Positions 1,297 through 18,987 of a stretch of DNA of 41,673 bases are shown here, piece after piece. Location of the stretch: contig JADZEF010000130.1 in the NCBI GenBank assembly GCA_020850695.1, positions 1 through 41,673 of the forward strand, in the 5' to 3' direction. Under the pieces are notes generated by a model that was not told the DNA's origin, searched no databases, and was given only the letters and a program-made list of their open reading frames with translations. The position numbers and the translations under genes were made by a program. The stretch is from Planctomycetaceae bacterium (GTDB lineage Bacteria; Planctomycetota; Planctomycetia; Planctomycetales; Planctomycetaceae). Each line of letters starts with the position of its first letter. The stretch's first letter is position 1.

Positions 1297-3063
1297 TCAG
1301 TGATTCAATCGGAACTCGGCGGACAGCAGCAGCCCCCACACAAGCGGTTGGAGGGCATCACGACGTTCTTTCGCCGTCTTTGCCGCCTCGATGACTGACC
1401 GCACTGCGGCAACTTCTTCCGCGTCCGGACGACGGCTGAGGAGCGACAGATAAAGTTCTTCGGCGACCGGCTCCGGAGTGTCGATTTCCGAGAGCCGGGA
1501 AAGCAGCGGAGCGTCCTTCACAAGTGCCAGGATGGCGGGGCTGTTGAGCAGATGCAGCGCCTGGTCGACCACCGGCTGAAAGTCTCCGTCCGGCTGCCCC
1601 GGAAGCCCCGCAAAGACGGCGCTCAAAGTCCTGGCCTGACGGTCGAGCGCATCCAGCTGGACCAGTCGCGCCTTCCATACGGGAGTGGCTTCCATCGGCG
1701 TGTCAGCGGGCGGCGTCGGTGAATTGGTTGCAGGCTTCGATTTCGCCTTCTGTTGGGCTTCCCATCGGGCGACGTGTTCTTCGACCCGCCCCGTCGCCTG
1801 CAGCAGCGACCAGGCGAACTGCTCGGGTGATAGGCCGCGCAGCTTCGCGGCGGCGAACCCGTCGACTGGCGACTCCTGGACCCCTTCGGGAAGAATGCTG
1901 GACCGCTGATAGGCGCGGCTCTGCATGATCTCCCGCATCAAGGTTTTGATGTCGAACTTCTGCTCGACAAACCACGATTCCATCCGGGCGAGCAACTCCG
2001 GGTGGGAGGGAGGATTGTCGGGATGGTGCAGGTCAAGCGGATGGACGAGGCCACGCCCCATCAGCTGTGCCCAGACGCGATTGACGATGTTTCGCGAGAA
2101 GCCGTGCGTCTCGGCCCGCGGCAGCAGTTCCGCCAGTTTCTTTCGCCGGCTGTAGGCGGGGACTCCGCGGTCGTTCGGACCGGGCTTCGTCACGTACTCC
2201 TTGCCGGCTTCGATCATCGGGTCGGCGACCATCTCGCCGCCGGGAAGCCGCGGGTTGGTCTCACCGCTTTTGGCAGTGAAGACGGAGACGAACGTCGCCT
2301 TGCCGGCCGCCGTTTCGCCGAGCAGCGACACATTCTTCTTCGAATCGCGGAAGGACGTGACCCGCTGCAGGAAAGCGTAAATGCCGTAGTAGTCGGCCTG
2401 CTTGTACGTCTCGATCCGCGGGTCGTCATGGCACTGGGCGCATTGCAGATCGATGCCCAGGAAGAGCCTGCCGACGTCCCGCGTCAACAGGTGCGGCCCC
2501 GCGTCCCGCACCAGGGCGAACTTCACTCCGGCCGCGTTGACGTCGCCTGTTCCATCGCTTTCCAGGATCTCCCGCACGATCCGGTCCCAGGGACGGTTCT
2601 CCGCGAACGCCTGCGTGAGGTATCCGCGCCAAGTGGGTGACGGAACATCGTAGGAGCTGATCGTCGGAATGCGCCGTTCGATCAGCATCACATCGAAGAC
2701 CCGCGCCATGTGGACCGCGTAATCGGGACGAGCCAGGAGTTGATCGACCAGACGCTGGCGCTTGTCGCTCGATGGATCGCCGAGGAATGCACGAACTTCC
2801 GAAGCCGTCGGCACCATCCCTGTCAGATCGAGATGAGCCCGCCGCACAAACTCCGCATCATCACAGACCGCTGCCGGAACGACGCCTTGTCCAGTCCATC
2901 GATGCTCGACGAGGCGGTCGATTTCTGCATGCAGCGAGGCCGCCGGCTGCGCGTGAACGACATCACCACCGGCGATCAGAGCCAGAAGGATCGCGACGAC
3001 TCCCGCGCCACGGGAGATCGCCCGTGCCGGTCGTGGTGCAATTAAGATCGGAGGACTCTTCAT
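1297..3063 (-). CDS. DUF1549/DUF1553 (PSCyt2/PSD1) secreted protein
   Basis: 588 residues. The N-terminus has a basic stretch and a hydrophobic run (GVVAILLALIAGG) ending in VHAQ, a good Sec signal peptide. DUF1549 covers about residues 42-245 and includes the heme-type motif CAQCH at 208-212. DUF1553 follows, with SRRKKLAELLP, NRVWAQLMGRGLVHPLDLHHP, SRAYQRSS and LSPEQFAWSLLQATG, ending in SAEFRLNH. Between the two DUF1553 blocks there is only a short linker, unlike the paralogue at 12628. It is the first gene of a likely two-gene unit with the DUF1501 gene. The role is unknown; CXXCH hints at covalent heme, but this is inference from the motif and from the family's PSCyt name. Confidence 0.92.
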   Translation of the reverse strand: MKSPPILIAPRPARAISRGAGVVAILLALIAGGDVVHAQPAASLHAEIDRLVEHRWTGQGVVPAAVCDDAEFVRRAHLDLTGMVPTASEVRAFLGDPSSDKRQRLVDQLLARPDYAVHMARVFDVMLIERRIPTISSYDVPSPTWRGYLTQAFAENRPWDRIVREILESDGTGDVNAAGVKFALVRDAGPHLLTRDVGRLFLGIDLQCAQCHDDPRIETYKQADYYGIYAFLQRVTSFRDSKKNVSLLGETAAGKATFVSVFTAKSGETNPRLPGGEMVADPMIEAGKEYVTKPGPNDRGVPAYSRRKKLAELLPRAETHGFSRNIVNRVWAQLMGRGLVHPLDLHHPDNPPSHPELLARMESWFVEQKFDIKTLMREIMQSRAYQRSSILPEGVQESPVDGFAAAKLRGLSPEQFAWSLLQATGRVEEHVARWEAQQKAKSKPATNSPTPPADTPMEATPVWKARLVQLDALDRQARTLSAVFAGLPGQPDGDFQPVVDQALHLLNSPAILALVKDAPLLSRLSEIDTPEPVAEELYLSLLSRRPDAEEVAAVRSVIEAAKTAKERRDALQPLVWGLLLSAEFRLNH

Positions 3064-5170: not shown

Positions 5171-6331
5171 TCACCATCGATAGACGGCGACCATGGCCGA
5201 ATGTCCTGGCACATCACTCTGCGGCACGACACACACGTGCCCGTCGTGTCGAAGCGTTTCGATGAGCGCCAGGTTGACCAGGTCAATCCGCGCCGGGTTT
5301 TCGGACGGGTCCGCTGCGATCTCGACACGAGTTGCCGCCTCGTCCCACGTCCCCCAGAGACGTTCGCCGAAGGCCGCGATGAGCGAGTCGATGCGACCGG
5401 CTGCCGCCGCCTCGACGATTGTCCCGGGGTCGCGTGCCCCGGCGGTCTCGGCGGCACGGTGGTACCGGTCGAGAGCAGACTTCACCGCTCCGGAATGCGT
5501 CGTCTCGAGGAGGTGGACCCCCCGCATGCGCACTTCCTCGGTTCCCATTTCATCGGGGCTTCCGTGGATGCCCTGCTCCACGAGGTTCTGACCCGCGTAG
5601 CCCTGCCGGAAGATCGCCTGGATCTCATGAACGGCGGCGAGCACGAGCGGAATCTCCTCCTTCTTCGTCAAAGCCTCCATGTCTTTCGCAACCTTCTGGA
5701 TGTACTCGCGGAATTGCACATGAGCATCGTCCTTGGTGCTTGTTCCACCGTGCACGAGGCCAATCGCAGGACCGCCGGGACCGGTGCCGACACCCGTCTG
5801 GAAGCGAACCGCCCGACCGATCTCGGTTTCCTGCAAAAAATTCTCGAGCGATGTCGGGACCGAGGCCGGAAGGTCAACGGGCACCGCTTCCTTCCGGTTG
5901 CAGCGGAACAACCGGACGGCCTTTCCGCTGACCGTCAGAAGCAGGAAATCGACCGGCCACACGAGAAGCCGCATCAACGGCGCAAGGTGGAACCTCGCCC
6001 CCACATCAACTGTCGCAGGACAGGGGTAGGGAAGAGAGTACGAATGCAATGCCCCTTCCTCGACCAGGAGCGCCAGCCCGGCAGAATCGAGTTGGGGTTG
6101 GGTGTTGCTTGCGGCGTGGTTCCGTGCCGGTTCGAGGAACCGCTTCGCTTCGCGGGCTCCCATCCCACCGCTCTGGAGCTTCTGTTCCGCTTCGTCCAAG
6201 GCGTCCCGCAGGCGCGTCGGATCTTGTTGTGCCTCGGGGTATGTCCGACCGAGCGGAAGATAGATCGAGGCACGAGGTCCGGTTCCAGGTTCCGCCAGTC
6301 CGAGCAGTTCAGTCCGTGAAATGTGGTCCAT
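5171..6331 (-). CDS. baeRF-like protein (bacterial archaeo-eukaryotic release factor family)
   Basis: 386 residues. The ATG at 6331 is chosen because AAGGAAAG lies 4-5 nt upstream; the much longer open frame above it is antisense to other genes. The N-terminal pattern SIYLPLGRTYPEAQQDPTRL followed by DALDEAEQKL, and the later LLLTVSGKAVRLFRCN strand, match the baeRF families, which are related to eRF1/Pelota and thought to act on stalled or hibernating ribosomes. The C-terminal part contains a HLLETTHSGAVKSALDRYH helix and ends in HVCVVPQSDVPGHSAMVAVYRW-like strands typical of the family. It is divergent from the CBS-domain gene and opens a cluster of stress-type genes. The family call is by eye; the exact subfamily (baeRF3 or a neighbour) is not certain. 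Confidence 0.7.
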   Translation of the reverse strand: MDHISRTELLGLAEPGTGPRASIYLPLGRTYPEAQQDPTRLRDALDEAEQKLQSGGMGAREAKRFLEPARNHAASNTQPQLDSAGLALLVEEGALHSYSLPYPCPATVDVGARFHLAPLMRLLVWPVDFLLLTVSGKAVRLFRCNRKEAVPVDLPASVPTSLENFLQETEIGRAVRFQTGVGTGPGGPAIGLVHGGTSTKDDAHVQFREYIQKVAKDMEALTKKEEIPLVLAAVHEIQAIFRQGYAGQNLVEQGIHGSPDEMGTEEVRMRGVHLLETTHSGAVKSALDRYHRAAETAGARDPGTIVEAAAAGRIDSLIAAFGERLWGTWDEAATRVEIAADPSENPARIDLVNLALIETLRHDGHVCVVPQSDVPGHSAMVAVYRW

Positions 6332-6928
6332 GATCTTTCCTTCGCGTTGATTGTGGGAAGCGTCGCCGGACACATCGCACTTCCCGTTCCGTGACCGACG
6401 AACTTCGCTTCCGAAGAGAATCCTGAGGTCGGATTGCAGGGAAACGGTCTGAAAGGAGATTTCCGCCGACCGCGCCTTCTTTGACAACTGGCGCGCGGCT
6501 GGAGGAGCGGGGGCGTGGCATTTTGTCGCAGAGGCGAGCGGTGGGGCGCGCCTTCCGGGGCGCCAGCCAGAACAACCCGCGTTTTCACGCGGCAAAGCGT
6601 GGACGGACTCATCGGCATGAAACTCGCACCGCTTCTGTTCGCTGTCCTTGGAAAGTTGAAACGCTGCCGGGATCCGTTCGAGGTTTTTCGCGGGGGGAGG
6701 GCGATCGCCGCGGCGCTTGCGAAGACGTTCGGGATGGAACTGAAAGTCCCGACGGTTGCGACCCTCCGCGGCGTGCCAGCCAGCCTTGCCGACTCGCAGA
6801 GAGTGTCGGTGGCGTCCCTCGGAACCGGCCGTCGCCGCAGAAAGCTGATCCGAAATCGCTGGCCGGTGTGTCTGAAGAATAAAGTCTATTCCTCGAGTGT
6901 CCGGTCCCTGGGCCGGAAGGAGGCCGCC
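6332..6928. other. Divergent intergenic region, no convincing gene
   Basis: About 600 nt separate the start codons of the baeRF-like gene (minus) and the CBS gene (plus). Open frames cross it on both strands, but the translations are Arg/Pro-rich and lack domain-like patterns. The start codons with good ribosome binding sites lie at either end. It most likely holds two divergent promoters; I could not pick a firm -35/-10 pair. Confidence 0.5.
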
Positions 6929-7369
6929 ATGTCCGTCGGAAGGATTTGCATTCGAACCGTCGACACCGTCGATCCCGAGGAAACGGCGCTGACCGCCGCC
7001 CGCCGGATGGCCGACCGGAACGTCGGGACGCTCGTCGTTCTCGACGAGAGGCGTCAGCCGGTCGGCATCGTGACCGACCGGGACTTGACGATCCGGGTGT
7101 TGGCCCAGAGTCGTGATCCGGTCGAAACGCGGGTGCGGAGCATCATGACGACCGACATCGAGACAGTGTCGGAGGCCACGCCCATTGAAGATGCACTTCA
7201 GAGAATGCGACGCGGTCCCTGCCGCCGCATCCCGGTCGTCAAGGGGGACGGCACGCTGGCCGGTTTGCTGAGCCTGGATGACATCCTCGATCTCCTCGCC
7301 GAGGAGTTCGACAGCATCGGCCGCATTCTCCGCCAGGAATCCCCCGCGACCCTCGGCGTCATCGAATAG
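6929..7369 (+). CDS. CBS-domain pair protein
   Basis: 146 residues. The ATG at 6929 follows a strong ribosome binding site (GGAAGGAGG, 6916-6924), which decides the start against a longer open frame. Two CBS motifs fill the protein: residues about 10-65 (VDPEETALTAARRMADRNVG, then TLVVLDERRQPVGIVTDRDL) and about 75-135 (MTTDIETVSEATPIEDALQR, then RIPVVKGDGTLAGLLSLDDIL). CBS pairs bind adenine nucleotides such as AMP, ATP or NAD and act as energy sensors; stand-alone versions are common in bacterial stress regulons. It is followed after 81 nt by the DUF2267 gene and is probably co-transcribed with it. Confidence 0.9.
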   Translation: MSVGRICIRTVDTVDPEETALTAARRMADRNVGTLVVLDERRQPVGIVTDRDLTIRVLAQSRDPVETRVRSIMTTDIETVSEATPIEDALQRMRRGPCRRIPVVKGDGTLAGLLSLDDILDLLAEEFDSIGRILRQESPATLGVIE

Positions 7370-7450
7370 AACGACCACGGGCGGAGAGGTCGCCCGGCGA
7401 CGCCCTCGCTTGAGAGGGCCGACCATCACACTTGCCGAAGGAGAACGAAG

Positions 7451-7876
7451 ATGAGCGCGACCGGACTCGACGTGTTCGACAGCACGCTGCAAGCCACTCA
7501 CATCTGGCTCGACGAAATACGGGACAATCTCGGCTGGAGCGATCGTCACAAGGCCTATCATGCGTTGCGCGCCGTCCTGCACGCGCTGCGCGACCGGCTC
7601 CCCGTCAACGAAGCGGTCGATCTGGCCGCCCAGCTGCCGCTGATGATTCGAGGCATCTACTACGAGGGCTGGCGGCCGGTCGGAAAGCCGGTGAAGGAAC
7701 GTTCGCTCGACCAGTTTCTGGCCCACGTCACGGACCAGTTCCTGTTCGACATCGGGGCCGACTCGAAAGAGATCGCTCGAACGGTGATCCATACTCTGGC
7801 CCGGCACGTCTCGCGGGGCGAAATCGACGACGTGAAAGGCGCGCTCCCGCGGGAGTTCGCCGCGTTGTTCGAGTGA
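7451..7876 (+). CDS. DUF2267 domain protein
   Basis: 141 residues with a clear ribosome binding site (GAAGGAGAACGAAG) ahead of the ATG. The whole protein matches the DUF2267 pattern: THIWLDEIRDNLGW, YHALRAVLHALRDRLP, EAVDLAAQLPLMIRGIYYEGW, and a second half with FLFDIGADSKEIARTVIHTLARHVSRGE-like helices. The family is small, helical and probably cytoplasmic. Its function is unknown, but it recurs beside CBS, BON, universal stress and Hsp20-type genes. Here it sits between the CBS gene and the hydrolase-phosphoribosyltransferase fusion, consistent with that setting. Confidence 0.88.
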   Translation: MSATGLDVFDSTLQATHIWLDEIRDNLGWSDRHKAYHALRAVLHALRDRLPVNEAVDLAAQLPLMIRGIYYEGWRPVGKPVKERSLDQFLAHVTDQFLFDIGADSKEIARTVIHTLARHVSRGEIDDVKGALPREFAALFE

Positions 7877-7879
7877 GGC

Positions 7880-7913
7880 GAAGCGGGACGCCACGCGCGT
7901 GGGGTCACGCTTC
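7880..7913 (+). repeat. Nested inverted repeat just past the DUF2267 stop
   Basis: GAAGCG (7880-7885) pairs with CGCTTC (7908-7913), enclosing the perfect palindrome CCACGC/GCGTGG (7891-7902). It begins 4 nt after the DUF2267 stop codon. There is no T-tract, so termination is possible but not shown. Confidence 0.4.
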
Positions 7914-7959
7914 AGAATGCCAGAATGACTATTTGTCCGATCCTCCCGCCGGCGCAGGA

Positions 7960-7982
7960 GATTGCCCGTAGCGGGCGCAATC
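7960..7982 (+). terminator. Candidate terminator hairpin between the DUF2267 and hydrolase genes
   Basis: GATTG-CCCG (7960-7968) pairs with CGGG-(CG)-CAATC (7972-7982) around a TAG loop, a 9-bp stem with a 2-nt bulge. The following bases are fairly T-rich (TTCGTTGCCTTTTCC). It lies 40 nt before the next start codon, so it could equally be a leader hairpin of that gene. Confidence 0.4.
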
Positions 7983-8022
7983 TTCGTTGCCTTTTCCAAG
8001 CTCCAGGTTTCTGAGAACTGCC

Positions 8023-9390
8023 ATGAACCGGCCCCAGCGCCTCGCTCGACTTGAAAAGGAAGTGCTCGTCGGACCCAACGCCCTGGCCGGGGATCTGGTT
8101 GTTCCCGGAGGAGCGACCGGGCTCGTGCTGTTTGCTCACGGCAGCGGAAGCAGCCGCCGCAGCAGTCGCAACCGCTTCGTTGCCGAAGTTCTGCAGGAGG
8201 CGGGGCTCGCGACGCTGTTGTTTGATCTGTTGCACGAGGACGAAGAGAACGACCGTCGGAACGTATTCGACATTGGCCTCCTCGCCGAACGACTCGAGGA
8301 AGCGACCGATTGGGCCGCGTCGCAGTCGGAGACTCGCGATCTCCGAATCGGTTACTTCGGGGCCAGCACGGGAGCCGCGGCCGCCCTGGTCGCCGCATCG
8401 CGGCGGCCCGATGTCGTTCGTGCGGTTGTCTCGCGCGGCGGACGCCCCGATATGGCCGGCACCACCCTCGCGGACGTCAAGGCCCCAACTCTGCTGATCG
8501 TCGGGGGCGATGACGTCTCGGTCGTGCCCCTCAATCAACAGGCCTATGAATCTCTGTGGTGCGACAAAAAACTCGTCATCGTGCCGGGCGCCACACACCT
8601 CTTTCCGGAGCCGGGCACTTTGGAAGAAGTGGCCCGGCTGGCCCGCGACTGGTTCGTGTCCCACTTGTCAGCCTCTGCTCCGCGCGAGAGGGCCCGCGCG
8701 TCCCACCATCCCCGACCGGAAGCCGATCCTGCGGTGTTGTTCCGCGACCGGGAGGAGGCGGGCCGGCGACTGGCGGACGAACTCAGGACGCTGGAATTGC
8801 ACGATCCCGTCGTGTTGGGCATCCCGCGAGGAGGCGTCGCGACCGCCGCCGCCCTGGCACGCGAACTGGGCGCCGAGCTGGACGTTGTCCTTTCCCGCAA
8901 GCTTCGAGCGCCGATGCAGCCGGAGTTTGCCGTCGGTGCCGTCGGCGAGGATGGCAAGATCTACGTGACCCCCGAGGCGAGGTTGGTTTCTGGAATCTCG
9001 AACGACTACATGGCTCGGGAACGCCAACATCAAATGCAGGAGATCGAGCGGCGCAAGCGGCTGTTCCGGGCGGTACGACCGGCCGCCGTCCTGAAGAATC
9101 GGACGGTGATCGTCACCGACGACGGTATTGCCACGGGATCGACGATGATCGCGGCCCTCGAAACGATTCGCCTTCATTCGCCGCGTGAGCTGATCGTCGC
9201 AGTCCCCGTGGCGCCGCCCGAGCGTCTCCCTTCCATTCAGCAGCGCTGTGATCGCTTGATCTGCCTCCACGCGCCCGACCCATTCTGGGCGGTGGGACAA
9301 TTCTACCAGGACTTCCGACAGGTCGAAGACGACGAAGCCGTCGCGATGCTGCGAGAATCCACGCTCGGAGTTGCCCAGGGAGCGGACTGA
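8023..9390 (+). CDS. Alpha/beta-hydrolase fused to a phosphoribosyltransferase domain
   Basis: 455 residues from the ATG at 8023 (another ATG lies 12 codons upstream). Residues 20-215 form an alpha/beta hydrolase of the dienelactone-hydrolase type: FAHGSGSSRRS near 38-46 (oxyanion region), nucleophile S115 in GASTGA, acid D163/D164 in VGGDD, and H192 in GATHLF. Residues 235-445 form a type I phosphoribosyltransferase: GIPRGGVATAAALARELGAE, SRKLRAPMQPEFAVGAVGEDG, and the PRPP loop VIVTDDGIATGSTM at about 362-375. This two-domain arrangement occurs in environmental bacteria, usually in stress-gene neighbourhoods. The substrates of both halves are unknown, and whether the product of one feeds the other is speculation. 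Confidence 0.88.
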   Translation: MNRPQRLARLEKEVLVGPNALAGDLVVPGGATGLVLFAHGSGSSRRSSRNRFVAEVLQEAGLATLLFDLLHEDEENDRRNVFDIGLLAERLEEATDWAASQSETRDLRIGYFGASTGAAAALVAASRRPDVVRAVVSRGGRPDMAGTTLADVKAPTLLIVGGDDVSVVPLNQQAYESLWCDKKLVIVPGATHLFPEPGTLEEVARLARDWFVSHLSASAPRERARASHHPRPEADPAVLFRDREEAGRRLADELRTLELHDPVVLGIPRGGVATAAALARELGAELDVVLSRKLRAPMQPEFAVGAVGEDGKIYVTPEARLVSGISNDYMARERQHQMQEIERRKRLFRAVRPAAVLKNRTVIVTDDGIATGSTMIAALETIRLHSPRELIVAVPVAPPERLPSIQQRCDRLICLHAPDPFWAVGQFYQDFRQVEDDEAVAMLRESTLGVAQGAD

Positions 9391-12627: not shown

Positions 12628-15537
12628 ATGACTGGCTTGCCCATGAGACGATGTATTCTCCCTTCGGGGTGTTTGTTCAAGGCTCTCACCTCTCTGGCGG
12701 TGGCCTTGGTCATCGGTTCGGCGAGTACCGCATGGGCTCAGAATGCGTCTCTACACGCGCGGATCGATGAACAGATCGCCCTTGGGCATATCGGACCCAT
12801 GTCGCCGGTGGCGAGCGATGCCGATTTTGTGCGGCGGGTGCACCTCGACCTGATCGGCATGCTGCCGTCGGGCGCCGAGGCCCGTGCGTTCCTGGCGGAA
12901 TCCGCGCCCGACAAGCGGGTTCGTCTCATCGATCGTCTGCTGGCCGACCCGCGGCATCCCCGGCACATGGCGAATGTCTTCGACGTCATGTGGATGGAAC
13001 GGCGGGCCGACAAGCACGTTCCAGCGGCTGACTGGCAGAAGTATCTCTTCGATTCTTTCACGGCGAACAAGCCTTACGATCAACTCGTGCGCGAGGTGCT
13101 GGCGGCGGACGGAACTGATCCCGCCACGCGACCGGCCGCGAAGTTCCTGCTCGACCGCGATGCGGAGCCCTTTCGCGTTGCCCGCGACGTCGGCCGGATG
13201 TTCTTCGGCCACGACCTGCAATGTGCCCAGTGCCACGACCATCCGAACATCGATGATTACTATCAGGCCGACTACCACGGTCTCGTCGCGTTCTTCAGCC
13301 GCACTTCGGTCTTCATTCCCAAGGACAAGGACAAGAAAAACCTTCCTGCGGTGCTGATGGACGCGGCCACCGGGGAAGTGGGCTATCAGTCGGTCTTTGT
13401 TCCGACCGCCAAAGGGGTCACGCTTCCCAAGGTGCTCGGTGGCCGACAGGTCGAAGAGCCTCGATTCAAGGCGGGAGAGGAGTATGCGGTACCGCCGGCC
13501 CCCGAGGCTCGGCAGGTGCCGAAATACAGCCGCCGCGCCCAGCTTGCCGCACAGATTGGCCCGGCCAACCGCCCGTTCAACCGCAACATTGCCAATCGGC
13601 TGTGGGCGATGATGATGGGACGAGGCCTCGTCGAGCCGGTCGATCTGCATCACAACGCCAACCCGCCGACGCACCCCCAGCTCCTGGAATTGCTGACCGA
13701 CGAATTCGTCGCCATGAAGTACGACGTTCGCGCCTTCCTGCGCGAGCTCGCCCTGTCGCAGACGTACCAGCGGTCGATTGACCTTCCCGCCGATTTCGTC
13801 GCTCAGGGAACGGCCCTCGCGGCCCAGGTTCCGGCGCTCGATCAACAGGAGCAGCAGACGGCGGCGGTCAGCAAAGTGTCGAGCGATGCCGCATCGAAGG
13901 CGCTGGAAGCCGCCCAGGCGGCCCGCGCCACGCTTCCCCCGATCTACGAGGAACGGACCAAGGCCGCCCAACCGATCGCCGAGACGCAGAAAGCGATCGA
14001 TGCGGCGAACAAGGCGCTGGCGGAAGCATCGGCAAAGCTTGCGCCGAAGCAGGACGTGGCCAAGCTCGTTGTCGAAGCGGCAGCCAAGGCGAAAGAGGCT
14101 TCGGTCAAGCTGCCGGGCGAAGCCGACCTGGTCGAGGCCGCGGCCAAATTCGAAGCCCGCTCGACAGCCCTCAACGCAGAGGTGGCTGCGCTGACCAAAG
14201 AGGTTGCCGACAAGACCGCGGCATCGAAGGCCGCCAGCGACAAACTCGCCACACTCAACACGGCCGTCGATGCCGTTCAGACGAAGATTGAGGCGGCTCG
14301 CAAGCAGCTGATGGCGCTGGAAGACCAGCACGACGCAGCCGCGGCGAAGAACCGCGCCGACCTCGCCGCAACGGCCCTCGCAAAACGCAAGGCGGCCGAA
14401 GCGAAATCGCTTGTCGAAGCAGCGAACCTGGGGACGGCATCGCAATCCTCGCAGGCTGCCGCGGCGAAACTGTCCGCCGATCTTGCGGCAGCCAAAGCCA
14501 CGCTGGCGAAGCTGACCGCCGAACTTCCCGCCATGCAGGCCGCGCAAGCGGCTGCTCAAAAGGCGAACGATGACGCTGCGGCGGCAATGACCGCCGCGAA
14601 AGGCGTGCTCAATATGAAGCAGCTCGCCATGAAGGAATTCGGCGAAGTCCTGGCCAAGGCGGATGCGGCGGCGCAGAAACTCGCCGGCGATGCCGAAGTG
14701 GCCGCGACCGTGCAGAAACTCAAGGCCCGGAGCGAAACGCTGACGGCCGAGCTCGCAGCCGTGACGAAAGATTTCACCGCAAAGGACGAAGCCGCCAAGA
14801 CAGCGGCCGCGAAACTGGCCGCCGCCACGCAGGTCGTTGCCGCGACGACGGCTCAGATGACCGACCTTTCGCAGAAGACGCCCGTCCTCGAGCAGCAGGT
14901 TCCAGCCGCAACCGCCAAAGCGGCAGCCGATGCGGCGGCATTCCAGCGCGTGACGGCCGAGATCCCCGAGCGATGGGCAAAGGAGTTCGCGACCGGCCGC
15001 GTCCGCCATCTCAGTCCCGAGCAATTCGCATGGAGCGTGCTGGTCGTGACGGGGGTCTATCACAACTACACCATCGCCACCGCGGCCGAGATCGAGAAGG
15101 CCAAGCCGCTGACCGAAGAAGCGAAGAAAGACCCGGCCCAGCTGACCGCCCGGCAGCGGGAACTCGAAGCGGCCGTCTTCGCCAAGCTCGCGCCGAGCGT
15201 CGTGCAGTTCGTCAATCTCTTCGGAAACGGACAGGCCGCCCCGCAAACCGATTTCTTCGCGACAGTCGACCAGGCCCTGTTCGTCGCCAATGGCGGCACG
15301 GTCCGCAGCTGGCTCGCTCCGAGCGGCGAGAACCTCACCGCCCGCCTGATGCCGTTGAACGATCCGAAGGCGCTCGCCGAGGAAATGTACATCAGCCTCT
15401 TTGCCCGCACGCCGACGGCGGCAGAGGTTGCCGAAGTGACTCAATACCTGGCGGCCCGTCCCAACGAGCGCCTTCAGGCGGTGCAGGAAATGTGCTGGGG
15501 CCTGATCAGTTCAACGGAGTTCCGGTTCAATCATTAG
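12628..15537 (+). CDS. DUF1549/DUF1553 secreted protein with a giant Ala-rich coiled-coil insertion
   Basis: 969 residues from 12628; an ATG at 12643 is an alternative. A signal peptide (ALTSLAVALVIGSASTAWA) precedes DUF1549, which carries CAQCHDHP (C199, C202, H203). The first part of DUF1553 follows: SRRAQLAAQIGP, NRLWAMMMGRGLVEPVDLHHN, SQTYQRSIDLP. From about residue 405 to 785 the sequence turns into an Ala/Lys/Glu-rich coiled coil with many heptad-like repeats. DUF1553 then resumes at VRHLSPEQFAWSVLVVTGVY and ends SSTEFRFNH. The paralogue at 1297-3063 has only a short linker at that point. It starts a same-strand run with DUF1501, an Rpn-type nuclease and a WD40 protein. Function is unknown; the coiled coil suggests a long rod or an oligomerisation arm outside the cytoplasm. 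Confidence 0.92.
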   Translation: MTGLPMRRCILPSGCLFKALTSLAVALVIGSASTAWAQNASLHARIDEQIALGHIGPMSPVASDADFVRRVHLDLIGMLPSGAEARAFLAESAPDKRVRLIDRLLADPRHPRHMANVFDVMWMERRADKHVPAADWQKYLFDSFTANKPYDQLVREVLAADGTDPATRPAAKFLLDRDAEPFRVARDVGRMFFGHDLQCAQCHDHPNIDDYYQADYHGLVAFFSRTSVFIPKDKDKKNLPAVLMDAATGEVGYQSVFVPTAKGVTLPKVLGGRQVEEPRFKAGEEYAVPPAPEARQVPKYSRRAQLAAQIGPANRPFNRNIANRLWAMMMGRGLVEPVDLHHNANPPTHPQLLELLTDEFVAMKYDVRAFLRELALSQTYQRSIDLPADFVAQGTALAAQVPALDQQEQQTAAVSKVSSDAASKALEAAQAARATLPPIYEERTKAAQPIAETQKAIDAANKALAEASAKLAPKQDVAKLVVEAAAKAKEASVKLPGEADLVEAAAKFEARSTALNAEVAALTKEVADKTAASKAASDKLATLNTAVDAVQTKIEAARKQLMALEDQHDAAAAKNRADLAATALAKRKAAEAKSLVEAANLGTASQSSQAAAAKLSADLAAAKATLAKLTAELPAMQAAQAAAQKANDDAAAAMTAAKGVLNMKQLAMKEFGEVLAKADAAAQKLAGDAEVAATVQKLKARSETLTAELAAVTKDFTAKDEAAKTAAAKLAAATQVVAATTAQMTDLSQKTPVLEQQVPAATAKAAADAAAFQRVTAEIPERWAKEFATGRVRHLSPEQFAWSVLVVTGVYHNYTIATAAEIEKAKPLTEEAKKDPAQLTARQRELEAAVFAKLAPSVVQFVNLFGNGQAAPQTDFFATVDQALFVANGGTVRSWLAPSGENLTARLMPLNDPKALAEEMYISLFARTPTAAEVAEVTQYLAARPNERLQAVQEMCWGLISSTEFRFNH

Positions 15538-15652: not shown

Positions 15653-16948
15653 ATGAAATGTAACTACGCCTGTGGTAGCGCCGAACACGGCATGGCACGA
15701 CGCCAGTTCCTGGGGACGATGGCTGGGCTGGGCGCGACCGGCCTCGGAGTCGTCGGCGGGCTCGGCGCGTTCACCCGGCCTGCGGTCGCCGATCAACTCG
15801 CGAAGCAGCAGAAGCGGGTCGTCGTCATCAACATGCACGGCGGACTCTCGCAACTCGAAAGCTGGGATCCGAAGCCGGGAACGACCACCGGCGGACCGTT
15901 CCGCGCCATCCCCACCAGCGTGCCCGGCATCCATATCTCCGAGTTGCTCCCGCACACCGCTAAGGTCATGCAGCACATGGCCCTCGTCCGCGGCATCAAC
16001 ACCAAGGAGAACGACCACGGCAAGGGGGCCTACATGATGCTCCACGGCCGCCGCGAGCAGCCCGGCATGGAGTATCCGCAGATCGGCGCGGTGATGGCCA
16101 AGGCGCTGGGAACCGACACCGGGCTTCCCGGCCACATCGTCATCACGCCGGGGGGCGGCGGCGGACGCGGCAACGATTCGGCCTACCTCGGCCCCAAGTA
16201 CAGCAGCATCGCCCTGGGCAACGGCAATCCCCCGCAGAACGTGGCTCGCCCCGGCGACATCACCGAAGCAGCCGAAGCGGCCCGGCAGGCATTCCGCAAG
16301 AAGGCCAACGACGCCTTCTCGGCCCGTCGCCGCACGGCCCTCACCGACGCCTATGTTTCGAGCTACGATCAGGCGACCGAACTGATGAAGCGTGGCGAAG
16401 TCTTCGACGTCTCGAAGGAGCCGGCCGCCGATCACGAACGGTACGGCAAGCACGACTTCGGCCGCCACTGCCTCCTCGCCCGGCGACTACTTGAAGCGGG
16501 CGTCACCTTCGTGCAGGTCTCGCACTCGAACTACGACACGCACAACGAGAACTTCGATTTCCACCTCGAGCAGGTCGGCGAGTTCGACAAGCCGTTCGCC
16601 ACGCTGGTCGAAGACCTCGCTCAGCGGGGCATGCTCGAAAGCACGATGTTCGTGGTCCTCTCGGAGTTCGGCCGCACTCCCAATATCAACATCTACTACG
16701 GCCGCGATCACTGGGGAACCGCGTGGAGCGTCTGCATGGGAGGCGGCAAGATCGCCCGCGGTGCGGTGTTGGGCAAGACGAACGAAACGGGCACCGCGGT
16801 CATCGATCACGAAGTCGACCACGCGAACCTGTTCCACACCTACCTGGCGGCGCTGGGCGTCGACTCGAGCGGCAATTTCGACATCGCCGGCCGCAAGATG
16901 CCAATGGCCGATCCGTCGTCGAAGGTGATCAAGGATCTGCTCACCTGA
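15653..16948 (+). CDS. DUF1501 family secreted protein
   Basis: 431 residues. An N-terminal ARRQFLGTMAGLGATGLG motif looks like a twin-arginine signal, followed by a hydrophobic stretch and AVADQ. DUF1501 features are INMHGGLSQLESWDPKPGT, KENDHGKGAYMMLHGR, ITPGGGGGRGND, FDVSKEPAADHERYGKHDFG, SHSNYDTHNENF, VVLSEFGRTPNINIYYGRDH, and the C-terminal DIAGRKMPMADPSSKVIKDL. It lies 115 nt after the DUF1549/DUF1553 gene, the usual planctomycete order, and is a paralogue of the truncated gene at the left edge. If the Tat signal is real, the protein folds before export, perhaps with a metal bound as in the related alkaline phosphatase superfamily; that is inference. Confidence 0.92.
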   Translation: MKCNYACGSAEHGMARRQFLGTMAGLGATGLGVVGGLGAFTRPAVADQLAKQQKRVVVINMHGGLSQLESWDPKPGTTTGGPFRAIPTSVPGIHISELLPHTAKVMQHMALVRGINTKENDHGKGAYMMLHGRREQPGMEYPQIGAVMAKALGTDTGLPGHIVITPGGGGGRGNDSAYLGPKYSSIALGNGNPPQNVARPGDITEAAEAARQAFRKKANDAFSARRRTALTDAYVSSYDQATELMKRGEVFDVSKEPAADHERYGKHDFGRHCLLARRLLEAGVTFVQVSHSNYDTHNENFDFHLEQVGEFDKPFATLVEDLAQRGMLESTMFVVLSEFGRTPNINIYYGRDHWGTAWSVCMGGGKIARGAVLGKTNETGTAVIDHEVDHANLFHTYLAALGVDSSGNFDIAGRKMPMADPSSKVIKDLLT

Positions 16949-16966: not shown

Positions 16967-17920
16967 ATGCGCACGGGCATCGATCCCACGGTCGACTACG
17001 CCTTCAAACGCGTCTTCTCGAAGGAGAATGAGGCGCTCCTCATCCATTTTCTGAATGCGATCCTCCAACCGGAGTCCTCACGCCAGATCGCCGGCATTGA
17101 TCTCATCACCACTGTCAACGACCGGCACACCGAGGACGACAAGCTGACGATCGTCGACCTGAAAGTCCGCGACACGGAAGGCCGCCGCATCATCATCGAG
17201 ATGCAACTGGCCGTCACCCGGGCCTTTCGCGAACGGATCCTCTACTACGGTTGCCGGGACTATGCGGGACAGCTTCACGACGGAGACGATTACTCGCTCC
17301 TGACCCCGACGATCGTGATCTGCATTGTCAGCCGTCAGCTGTTCCCGCAAGACAAGCCGCACCACTTCCGGTTCCGCCTCACGGCGGAAGGTTGCAGCGA
17401 GCCATTCACGGACCGATTGGAAATTCACACGATCGAGTTGGGCAAGTTCGCCGCAGAAGGCGACAAGCTTTGGACGCCACTGGACCAGTGGCTGTATTTT
17501 CTGAAGAATGGAGACGAGTTGGACGTCCGGAACCTTCCGCAAGGTCTGGCCGATCCTCAAGTCCGTCGGGCCGTGGAGGTGCTGGACATGATTTCGCAGA
17601 GCGAACTCGACCGCGAACGATACGAGCAGGAATTCAAGCGGCGGAAAGACATGCTCAATCGCGATAAGCTGCTTGTCGAGTACGAGAGTGAGGTCGCCCG
17701 CGCTGAAGGTCTGGAGAAGGGCCTGCAGGAAGGCCGCGAGAAGGGGCTTCAGGAAGGACGTCAGGAAGGCGAGTTGATCGGGCGGATCCGTATCCTCTGC
17801 CAGATTCTCGGAGATCCGGTTCCGTCCGTCGAAGGGTTGGCGTCGCTTTCGCTGGAAAAGCTCGCCGAGATGGCGGCCGACTGCCAGCGGCGGGCCCGCG
17901 AGCGTGGAATGCCCGTCTGA
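16967..17920 (+). CDS. Rpn-family PD-(D/E)XK nuclease / putative transposase
   Basis: 317 residues. The opening TGIDPTVDYAFKRVFSKENE and the nuclease core VDLKVRDTEGRRIIIEMQL (D64, E78, Q80) match the Rpn/PDDEXK_2 family, whose members include RecA-independent recombination-promoting nucleases and are often annotated as transposases. The C-terminal part is charged and ends with the repeated EKGLQEGREKGLQEGRQEGE segment, a typical tail of this family. It starts 18 nt after the DUF1501 stop, so it is probably translated from the same message, which is an odd partner for an exported-protein gene. I saw no terminal repeats, so it is unlikely to be an active mobile element. Confidence 0.88.
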   Translation: MRTGIDPTVDYAFKRVFSKENEALLIHFLNAILQPESSRQIAGIDLITTVNDRHTEDDKLTIVDLKVRDTEGRRIIIEMQLAVTRAFRERILYYGCRDYAGQLHDGDDYSLLTPTIVICIVSRQLFPQDKPHHFRFRLTAEGCSEPFTDRLEIHTIELGKFAAEGDKLWTPLDQWLYFLKNGDELDVRNLPQGLADPQVRRAVEVLDMISQSELDRERYEQEFKRRKDMLNRDKLLVEYESEVARAEGLEKGLQEGREKGLQEGRQEGELIGRIRILCQILGDPVPSVEGLASLSLEKLAEMAADCQRRARERGMPV

Positions 17921-17994: not shown

Positions 17995-18987
17995 ATGCCC
18001 GACCCTCAGCCGGCCCAGTCCCACGTCGCCACGCAGTGGCCCCACGACGCTCCGCTCATCGCGTGCCGGTTCGAGCCGAAGGGCCGCTACGTCTTCTCGA
18101 CGTCCGAAGACGCCAAGATCGAACGCTGGCTCCTCGCCGACGGTAAGAAGACCGTACTCGCCGGGCATGAAAGCTGGGTCTGGTGTCTCGGCTTTTCGAA
18201 GGACGGCGAGACGCTCTACTCGGGCGGCGGCGAGGGGCGGCTGATCTCTTGGCCCGTCGCGGCGGATGATCCAAAGCCCGCCCGCACCATCGAAGCCCAT
18301 CAGGGATGGATCCGCTGCCTCGCGGTCAGCCCCGACGGCCAGTTCATTGCCACGGCGGGTAACGATCGCATCATCCGCCTCTGGAATGCGGCAGACGGCA
18401 CGAAGGTGAAGGAGTTCGCCGGGCACGAGGTTCCTGTTTACAGCATCCTCTGGCATCCGGGGGGGCAGTTTCTGCTCTCGGGCGACCTCCGAGGCGTCGT
18501 CAAGCAGTGGGATGTGCCCGGGGGGATGCTGGCGCGGACGTTCGACGCCAAGCTGCTTCACAACTACAACGGCGGCCAGGGAGTCGACTTCGGCGGCGTC
18601 CGCAGTATGGCCCTCAGCCCGGATGGAAGATTCTTGTGCTGCGGTGGGCTTTACAAGGCCGAGAACCCCCTCGGCGCGGTGCTCGAACCCCTCGTGTTGC
18701 GGTTCGAGTGGGACAGCCAGAAGCTTGTCCAGCAGCACATCACGGAAGGACTCAAGGGGCCGATCTGGCGAATCGTCTTTCTTCCGGACGGAACGCTGGT
18801 TGGCGCGTGCGGAGGCTCGGCCGGCCGGCATGTCCTCTTCTGGAAATCGGATTCCGCAAAGGAATTCCACCGGCTCGAGTTGCCGAACCTCCCGCGCGAC
18901 ATGGACCTCTCTTCCGACGGCATGCAGCTTGTCACCACCCATCATGACCGGAATCTGCGGATCAGCAGGTTGTCGCCGAAGACATAG
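17995..18987 (+). CDS. WD40 repeat protein
   Basis: 330 residues with at least six WD40-type repeats, at about 17-48, 57-88, 101-132, 143-173, 199-240 and 255-290. Examples are GHESWVWCLGFSKDGETLYS, HQGWIRCLAVSPDGQFIATA and NDRIIRLWNAADGTKVKEFA. The length suits one beta-propeller. There is no signal peptide, so it is probably cytoplasmic. WD40 proteins scaffold other proteins and are often encoded right after DUF1549/DUF1501 genes in planctomycetes. It is the last gene before the large inverted repeat at 19141-19249. Confidence 0.88.
   Translation: MPDPQPAQSHVATQWPHDAPLIACRFEPKGRYVFSTSEDAKIERWLLADGKKTVLAGHESWVWCLGFSKDGETLYSGGGEGRLISWPVAADDPKPARTIEAHQGWIRCLAVSPDGQFIATAGNDRIIRLWNAADGTKVKEFAGHEVPVYSILWHPGGQFLLSGDLRGVVKQWDVPGGMLARTFDAKLLHNYNGGQGVDFGGVRSMALSPDGRFLCCGGLYKAENPLGAVLEPLVLRFEWDSQKLVQQHITEGLKGPIWRIVFLPDGTLVGACGGSAGRHVLFWKSDSAKEFHRLELPNLPRDMDLSSDGMQLVTTHHDRNLRISRLSPKT

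Follow-up and report, generated by a model that had tools for sequence, protein, structure and literature searches.

In a planctomycete of the family Planctomycetaceae (assembly GCA_020850695.1; contig JADZEF010000130.1, 41,673 nucleotides, hereafter the window), the DUF1553 domain of an exported protein is split by a 396-residue insert that contains a 190-residue internal duplication. Structure prediction indicates that the insert very probably forms two antiparallel hairpins with a common 186-residue middle helix, with LPxDxEL turns as their tips. The insert is old rather than recent, and we give about an even chance to the whole explanation, in which it is a length-constrained, two-armed antiparallel coil with the role of a spacer.

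The host protein and its insert

The 969-aa protein is encoded by a forward-strand ORF (12628–15537) with the following parts outside the insert:

12628–12738, +: signal peptide, residues 1–37, ending in ASTAWA before QNA (read from the sequence; helix at residues 15–36 in the model)
12799–13305, +: DUF1549 (PSCyt2), residues 58–226 (Pfam PF07583, E 1.6e-38)
13222–13236, +: CAQCH, a CxxCH haem attachment-like motif, residues 199–203 (homologue alignment)
13531–13797, +: DUF1553 (PSD1), N-terminal half, residues 302–390 (Pfam PF07587, positions 1–91)
14983–15537, +: DUF1553, C-terminal part, residues 786–969 plus stop, containing LSPEQFAWS (Pfam, translation)
1297–3063, −: P0002, a coil-less paralogue of 588 aa (translation, Pfam)

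Both domains scored well above their curated cut-offs (PF07583, 133.2 versus 29.8 bits; PF07587, 91.5 versus 28.5 bits, in two stretches flanking the insert), and C199, C202 and H203 of the CxxCH motif were invariant across 49 homologues. The DUF1549/DUF1553 family has been termed cytochrome-like (PMC2754498, PMC5615132), published work covers the combinations of PSCyt and PSD domains and the genes that are conserved beside them (PMC5615132), and Rhodopirellula baltica RB10051 has been described (PMC2754498). The core of the 969-aa protein is predicted to bind haem, and the whole is probably a periplasmic, c-type-cytochrome-like protein. Pfam identified 94 DUF1553 match stretches in the source genome. 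No sequence relative of the globular part was found in the PDB, and Foldseek returned no match at E ≤ 0.001 for the model of either this protein or P0002.

The DUF1553 profile halts at position 91 (residue 390) and picks up at position 99 at window position 14980, placing the insert at residues 390–785 (13795–14982). It is 32% alanine and balanced in charge (49 basic versus 48 acidic residues). Its core hydrophobics recur every 3.46 residues, with a spectral power 49 times the mean, and AlphaFold2 models continuous helices throughout (pLDDT ~69–97); given this periodicity and these helices, the insert is not chance low complexity. A preliminary description of the window had proposed a long coiled coil lying in frame within a conserved domain of an exported protein, which the Pfam split, the periodicity and the model confirm. 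It had placed the coil at 13840–14985, which is right to ~15 residues, the insert starting about that much earlier on the N-terminal side. P0002, which it had described as having a short linker at the same point, indeed reads QRSSILPEGVQESPVDGFAAAKLRGLSPEQFAWS there, ending in LSPEQFAWS.

P0002 further matches DUF1800 weakly (E 8.5e-4), short of the curated cut-off. In other bacteria DUF1800 genes are found paired with DUF1501 (PMC5122149), so a distant kinship between DUF1553 and DUF1800 is possible. Phycobilisome linker domains were rejected as structural kin of P0002 residues 106–372, the VIA-align score (Z ~5) being too weak. An 897-codon, Gly/Arg-rich open frame antisense to the coil gene (12751–15444, −) probably arises from the GC-rich codons that encode the Ala-rich protein. 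Elsewhere in the window, a 1,075-aa ORF (5171–8398, −) carries a baeRF (archaeo-eukaryotic release factor-like) domain at its C terminus; its first 800 residues match nothing in Pfam, and its true start may lie further downstream than annotated.

Predicted fold and internal duplication

With 49 window and locus sequences as input, AlphaFold2 modelled the 969-aa protein with a mean pLDDT of 89.6 and a pTM of 0.80. The insert was divided into three helices, with the two turns falling exactly on two copies of one sequence motif:

13795–14109, +: helix H1, residues 390–494, kinked at 434, outgoing strand of hairpin A (AlphaFold2, heptad phase)
14110–14121, +: turn A, residues 495–498, with the tip motif LPxDxEL over 495–501 (AlphaFold2, alignment)
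14122–14679, +: helix H2, residues 499–684, the 186-residue shared middle helix (AlphaFold2, heptad phase)
14680–14691, +: turn B, residues 685–688, with LAGDAEV as second copy of the tip motif (duplicate of turn A at an offset of 190 residues)
14692–14982, +: helix H3, residues 689–785, returning strand of hairpin B (AlphaFold2)

Model confidence was higher at the middle of H2 than at the tips. If H1 packs on the first half of H2 and H3 on the second half, on opposite sides, the hydrophobic seam is expected to change face midway along H2. Hydrophobic periodicity was heptad (3.5) in four segments of ~80–95 residues, with the phase constant within segments and stepped between them, and at residues 577–590, inside the continuous H2, the core positions shift by two residues (~170° at period 3.5). 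From the continuous middle helix and this swap of the seam, we infer that the two arms point in opposite directions. Two hairpins sharing one helix also bring both ends of the insert back to the DUF1553 domain. The preliminary description had spoken of an exported rod; the long coiled coil stands, but as two predicted hairpins rather than a single rod, spanning ~28 nm (H2, 186 residues at 1.485 Å per residue) rather than ~57 nm.

In shape only, residues 434–558 superpose on the antiparallel hairpin 2ysu_B (2.0 Å over 123 residues) and residues 620–753 on the antiparallel hairpin 5ew5_A (1.8 Å over 132). The coiled-coil domains of the peptidoglycan hydrolases PcsB, RipA and Cg1735, which are likewise extracytoplasmic antiparallel helical hairpins, gave some of the best shape matches (6ewy, Z 13.2, 8.5 Å over 199; 4cgk_A, Z 9.9, 4.2 Å over 168), a Z of ~13 being common for long helices. 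The coil protein differs in having no hydrolase domain, and the match is one of shape only. Matches to colicins, toxins and ABC transporters were likewise set aside as long-helix shape matches.

When the coil profile was compared with itself at all offsets, a lone peak appeared at 190 (0.597; mean −0.013, s.d. 0.122), with the neighbouring offsets 183 and 197 at the heptad background (0.205 and 0.282). Similarity at offset 190 was strongest at LPGEADLVEA/LAGDAEVAAT and positive in nearly every block, and the coil therefore contains a 190-residue internal duplication. Single-sequence BLAST scores between the coil halves were inflated by composition and were not relied on. The tip residues are kept in most of the 49 homologues (D498 in 39, D688 in 36, and L501 and L691 in 34 each).

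Length is held while sequence diverges

Across the 49 aligned homologues, mean pairwise identity was 19.8% in the coil, compared to 52% in DUF1549 and 54% and 42% in the two halves of DUF1553. The modal length was nevertheless kept by 65% of the sequences in the coil, versus 49% in the C-terminal half of DUF1553 and 31% in the inter-domain linker. DUF1549 (88%) and the first half of DUF1553 (71%) are also length-stable, yet far more conserved in sequence than the coil. Turn A lies 109 residues from the start in 35 of the 49 homologues, and at insert position 105 in nearly all; the two turns are exactly 190 residues apart in 44, and 98 residues separate turn B from the end in 43. In the Pirellula clade turn A is found at 119 with the A–B spacing still 190, and in two homologues (L063 and L085) that spacing is 182. 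Between the tips, the surface has diverged strongly (~3 bits of entropy per column). Conserved length with divergent sequence, together with antiparallel helical hairpins, here a prediction, are the marks of antiparallel coiled-coil spacer proteins.

The arms of SMC/Rad50 and MukB resemble the insert: they too are long intramolecular antiparallel coils in a globular protein, diverged in sequence, conserved in length and superposable. The coil protein differs in being exported, in having neither an ATPase head nor a hinge domain at the tip, and in having two arms with a common helix where SMC/Rad50 and MukB have one arm. Membership of the SMC family was rejected: there is no Walker A/B ATPase head or hinge, Pfam finds only DUF1549 and DUF1553, and the coil alone scored 20.3 and 16.9 bits against NCBIfam SMC models with cut-offs of 567 and 729.

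Distribution and gene neighbourhood

Among 59 relatives searched, matches to the whole protein (or to all of it that the contig holds) occurred in ~22–23 of 36 genomes of the same family and in four genomes from two other families of the class. Dozens more were found in named genomes (Schlesneria, Lacipirellula, Thalassoglobus, Fuerstiella, Pirellula and Planctomycetaceae MAGs), a scan that partly overlaps the search of relatives. A phylum-wide search at the strict cut-off of E 1e-100 recovered no full-length match outside the family to which the window belongs. The comparison of insertion length among relatives that the preliminary description had proposed covered 106 ORFs with both flanking domains: 77 carry inserts of >300 residues, most of exactly 396, a few carry inserts of 235–291 residues and the others none.

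That description had taken the coil for an in-frame expansion within a conserved domain, a reading suggested by its Ala/Lys/Glu-rich composition and by P0002, which lacks the coil although it lies in the window too. Most relatives examined, and members of other families of the class, nevertheless carry this insert at almost identical length, which refutes a recent repeat expansion in this genome; we assign that reading a negligible probability. It had also considered that the insert might be a normal part of a described DUF1553 subfamily: most relatives do carry it, but NCBIfam has no model for a coil-bearing DUF1553 subfamily and our literature search found no description of a long coiled coil inside DUF1553. 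In the source genome itself, four other DUF1553 proteins with a split Pfam match (L146–L149) carry other sequence, not the coil. Three contigs titled Akkermansia muciniphila or Candidatus Kuenenia stuttgartiensis (L063, L085 and L081) group among Planctomycetaceae-type sequences, and these MAG names are probably wrong.

Downstream of the coil gene the window contains:

15653–16948, +: DUF1501 protein, the conserved next gene (Pfam PF07394, E 3.6e-98)
16967–17920, +: PDDEXK_2 transposase-family ORF between the DUF1501 and WD40 genes (Pfam PF12784, E 1.3e-52)
17995–18987, +: WD40 protein without signal peptide, the usual third gene of the cluster (Pfam, N-termini)

The DUF1501 neighbour typical of the DUF1549/DUF1553 family is thus present (15653–16948), and DUF1501 is the next gene in essentially all coil loci with enough downstream sequence (~50 homologues). 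In 41 of these ~50 loci a WD40 gene lies no more than 2 kb away; planctomycete WD40 genes often neighbour DUF1501 (PMC5587647). The two are adjacent in most relatives and are separated by the PDDEXK_2 ORF in this genome. WD40 N-termini had no signal peptide in nearly all loci read, so these proteins are probably cytoplasmic, unlike the coil protein and DUF1501. A WD40 protein without signal peptide (for example, 17995–18987) is in this way genetically tied, across the membrane, to two exported proteins. A DUF1501 gene likewise comes after P0002 (1–1287, −); it is 44% identical to the other DUF1501 and runs off the window edge.

In its domains, CxxCH motif, signal peptide and DUF1501 neighbour, the coil-bearing protein matches ordinary planctomycete DUF1549/DUF1553 proteins. 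That ordinary kind is represented by coil-less orthologues from Gemmataceae, Isosphaeraceae and Gimesia that share the gene neighbourhood, with a DUF1501 neighbour in 21 of 22 and a WD40 neighbour in 20 of 22; the long coil in DUF1553 sets the coil-bearing protein apart.

Evolution of the coil

A quick unrooted tree of the globular parts (74 rows, most duplicates dropped, backbone poorly resolved) included the coil at ~396 residues in 40 rows. It requires two changes for presence or absence of the coil and five for the shortened form. All seven shortened homologues keep turn A at insert position 104–108, and the loss falls in hairpin B, which was lost about five times on this tree. Given these losses and the coil-less orthologues with the same neighbours, full length is not indispensable. 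The simplest account would start from an ancestor without the coil, in which one hairpin was inserted into DUF1553. Tandem duplication of that hairpin would then have given two arms, with the inbound helix of the first copy merged end to end with the outbound helix of the second, and arm B would later have been lost repeatedly. Because the tree is unrooted, the direction of these changes is not proven.

Possible functions

According to a review of coiled coils, coils that diverge in sequence while conserving length act as spacers (PMC5082667). This rule, the fixed tip spacing and the conserved tips together point to a spacer or ruler role, and a spacer acting in the periplasm seems to us about as probable as all other roles combined. 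H1 would run out ~15 nm from the DUF1553 domain to turn A, H2 would pass the domain again on its way to turn B on the opposite side, from which H3 would return, so that the domain would sit in the middle of a crossbar (~28 nm) with two similar tips. The crossbar would fix how far the two conserved tips lie from the predicted haem-binding core, the tips probably being docking sites for partners or other copies, and the protein would be partnered with DUF1501 and often with the cytoplasmic WD40 protein. The more specific proposal of a new molecular ruler, a pseudo-two-fold, two-armed coil whose fixed 190-residue tip spacing sets envelope distances or spaces copies, is tentative and on balance unlikely. 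Natural one-armed and armless forms, the latter with the same DUF1501 and WD40 neighbours, argue against a strict ruler.

A rival explanation is that the coil is a structural decoration without ruler function, its length kept only because antiparallel packing forbids unmatched indels. In its favour, orthologues lacking the coil occupy the same operon context, hairpin B was lost about five times on the tree, and a purely structural constraint would make indels rare in any antiparallel coil, where helix-packing register alone could fix the length. Under this explanation, however, one would have to account for the sequence motif retained at both turns (D498, D688, L501 and L691) and for turn A keeping its position in every shortened coil-bearing member seen; moreover, unmatched length changes do occur, if rarely (the Pirellula clade, L063 and L085). 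We consider decoration possible but doubtful. It is more improbable still that the arms are oligomerisation devices, joining copies by their tips or sides into a lattice or assembly of cytochrome-like heads: a pseudo-two-fold arm with a similar tip at each end would lend itself to polymer formation and the protein is an exported member of a much-multiplied family, but the highly diverged surface between the tips disfavours lateral self-contacts.

DUF1549, DUF1553 and DUF1501 are among the most multiplied planctomycete protein families. A subfamily with a long coil of fixed length, two conserved tips and natural two-, one- and no-arm forms offers an experimental handle on what these proteins touch, and the coil shows how duplicating one hairpin inside a domain can yield a double hairpin.
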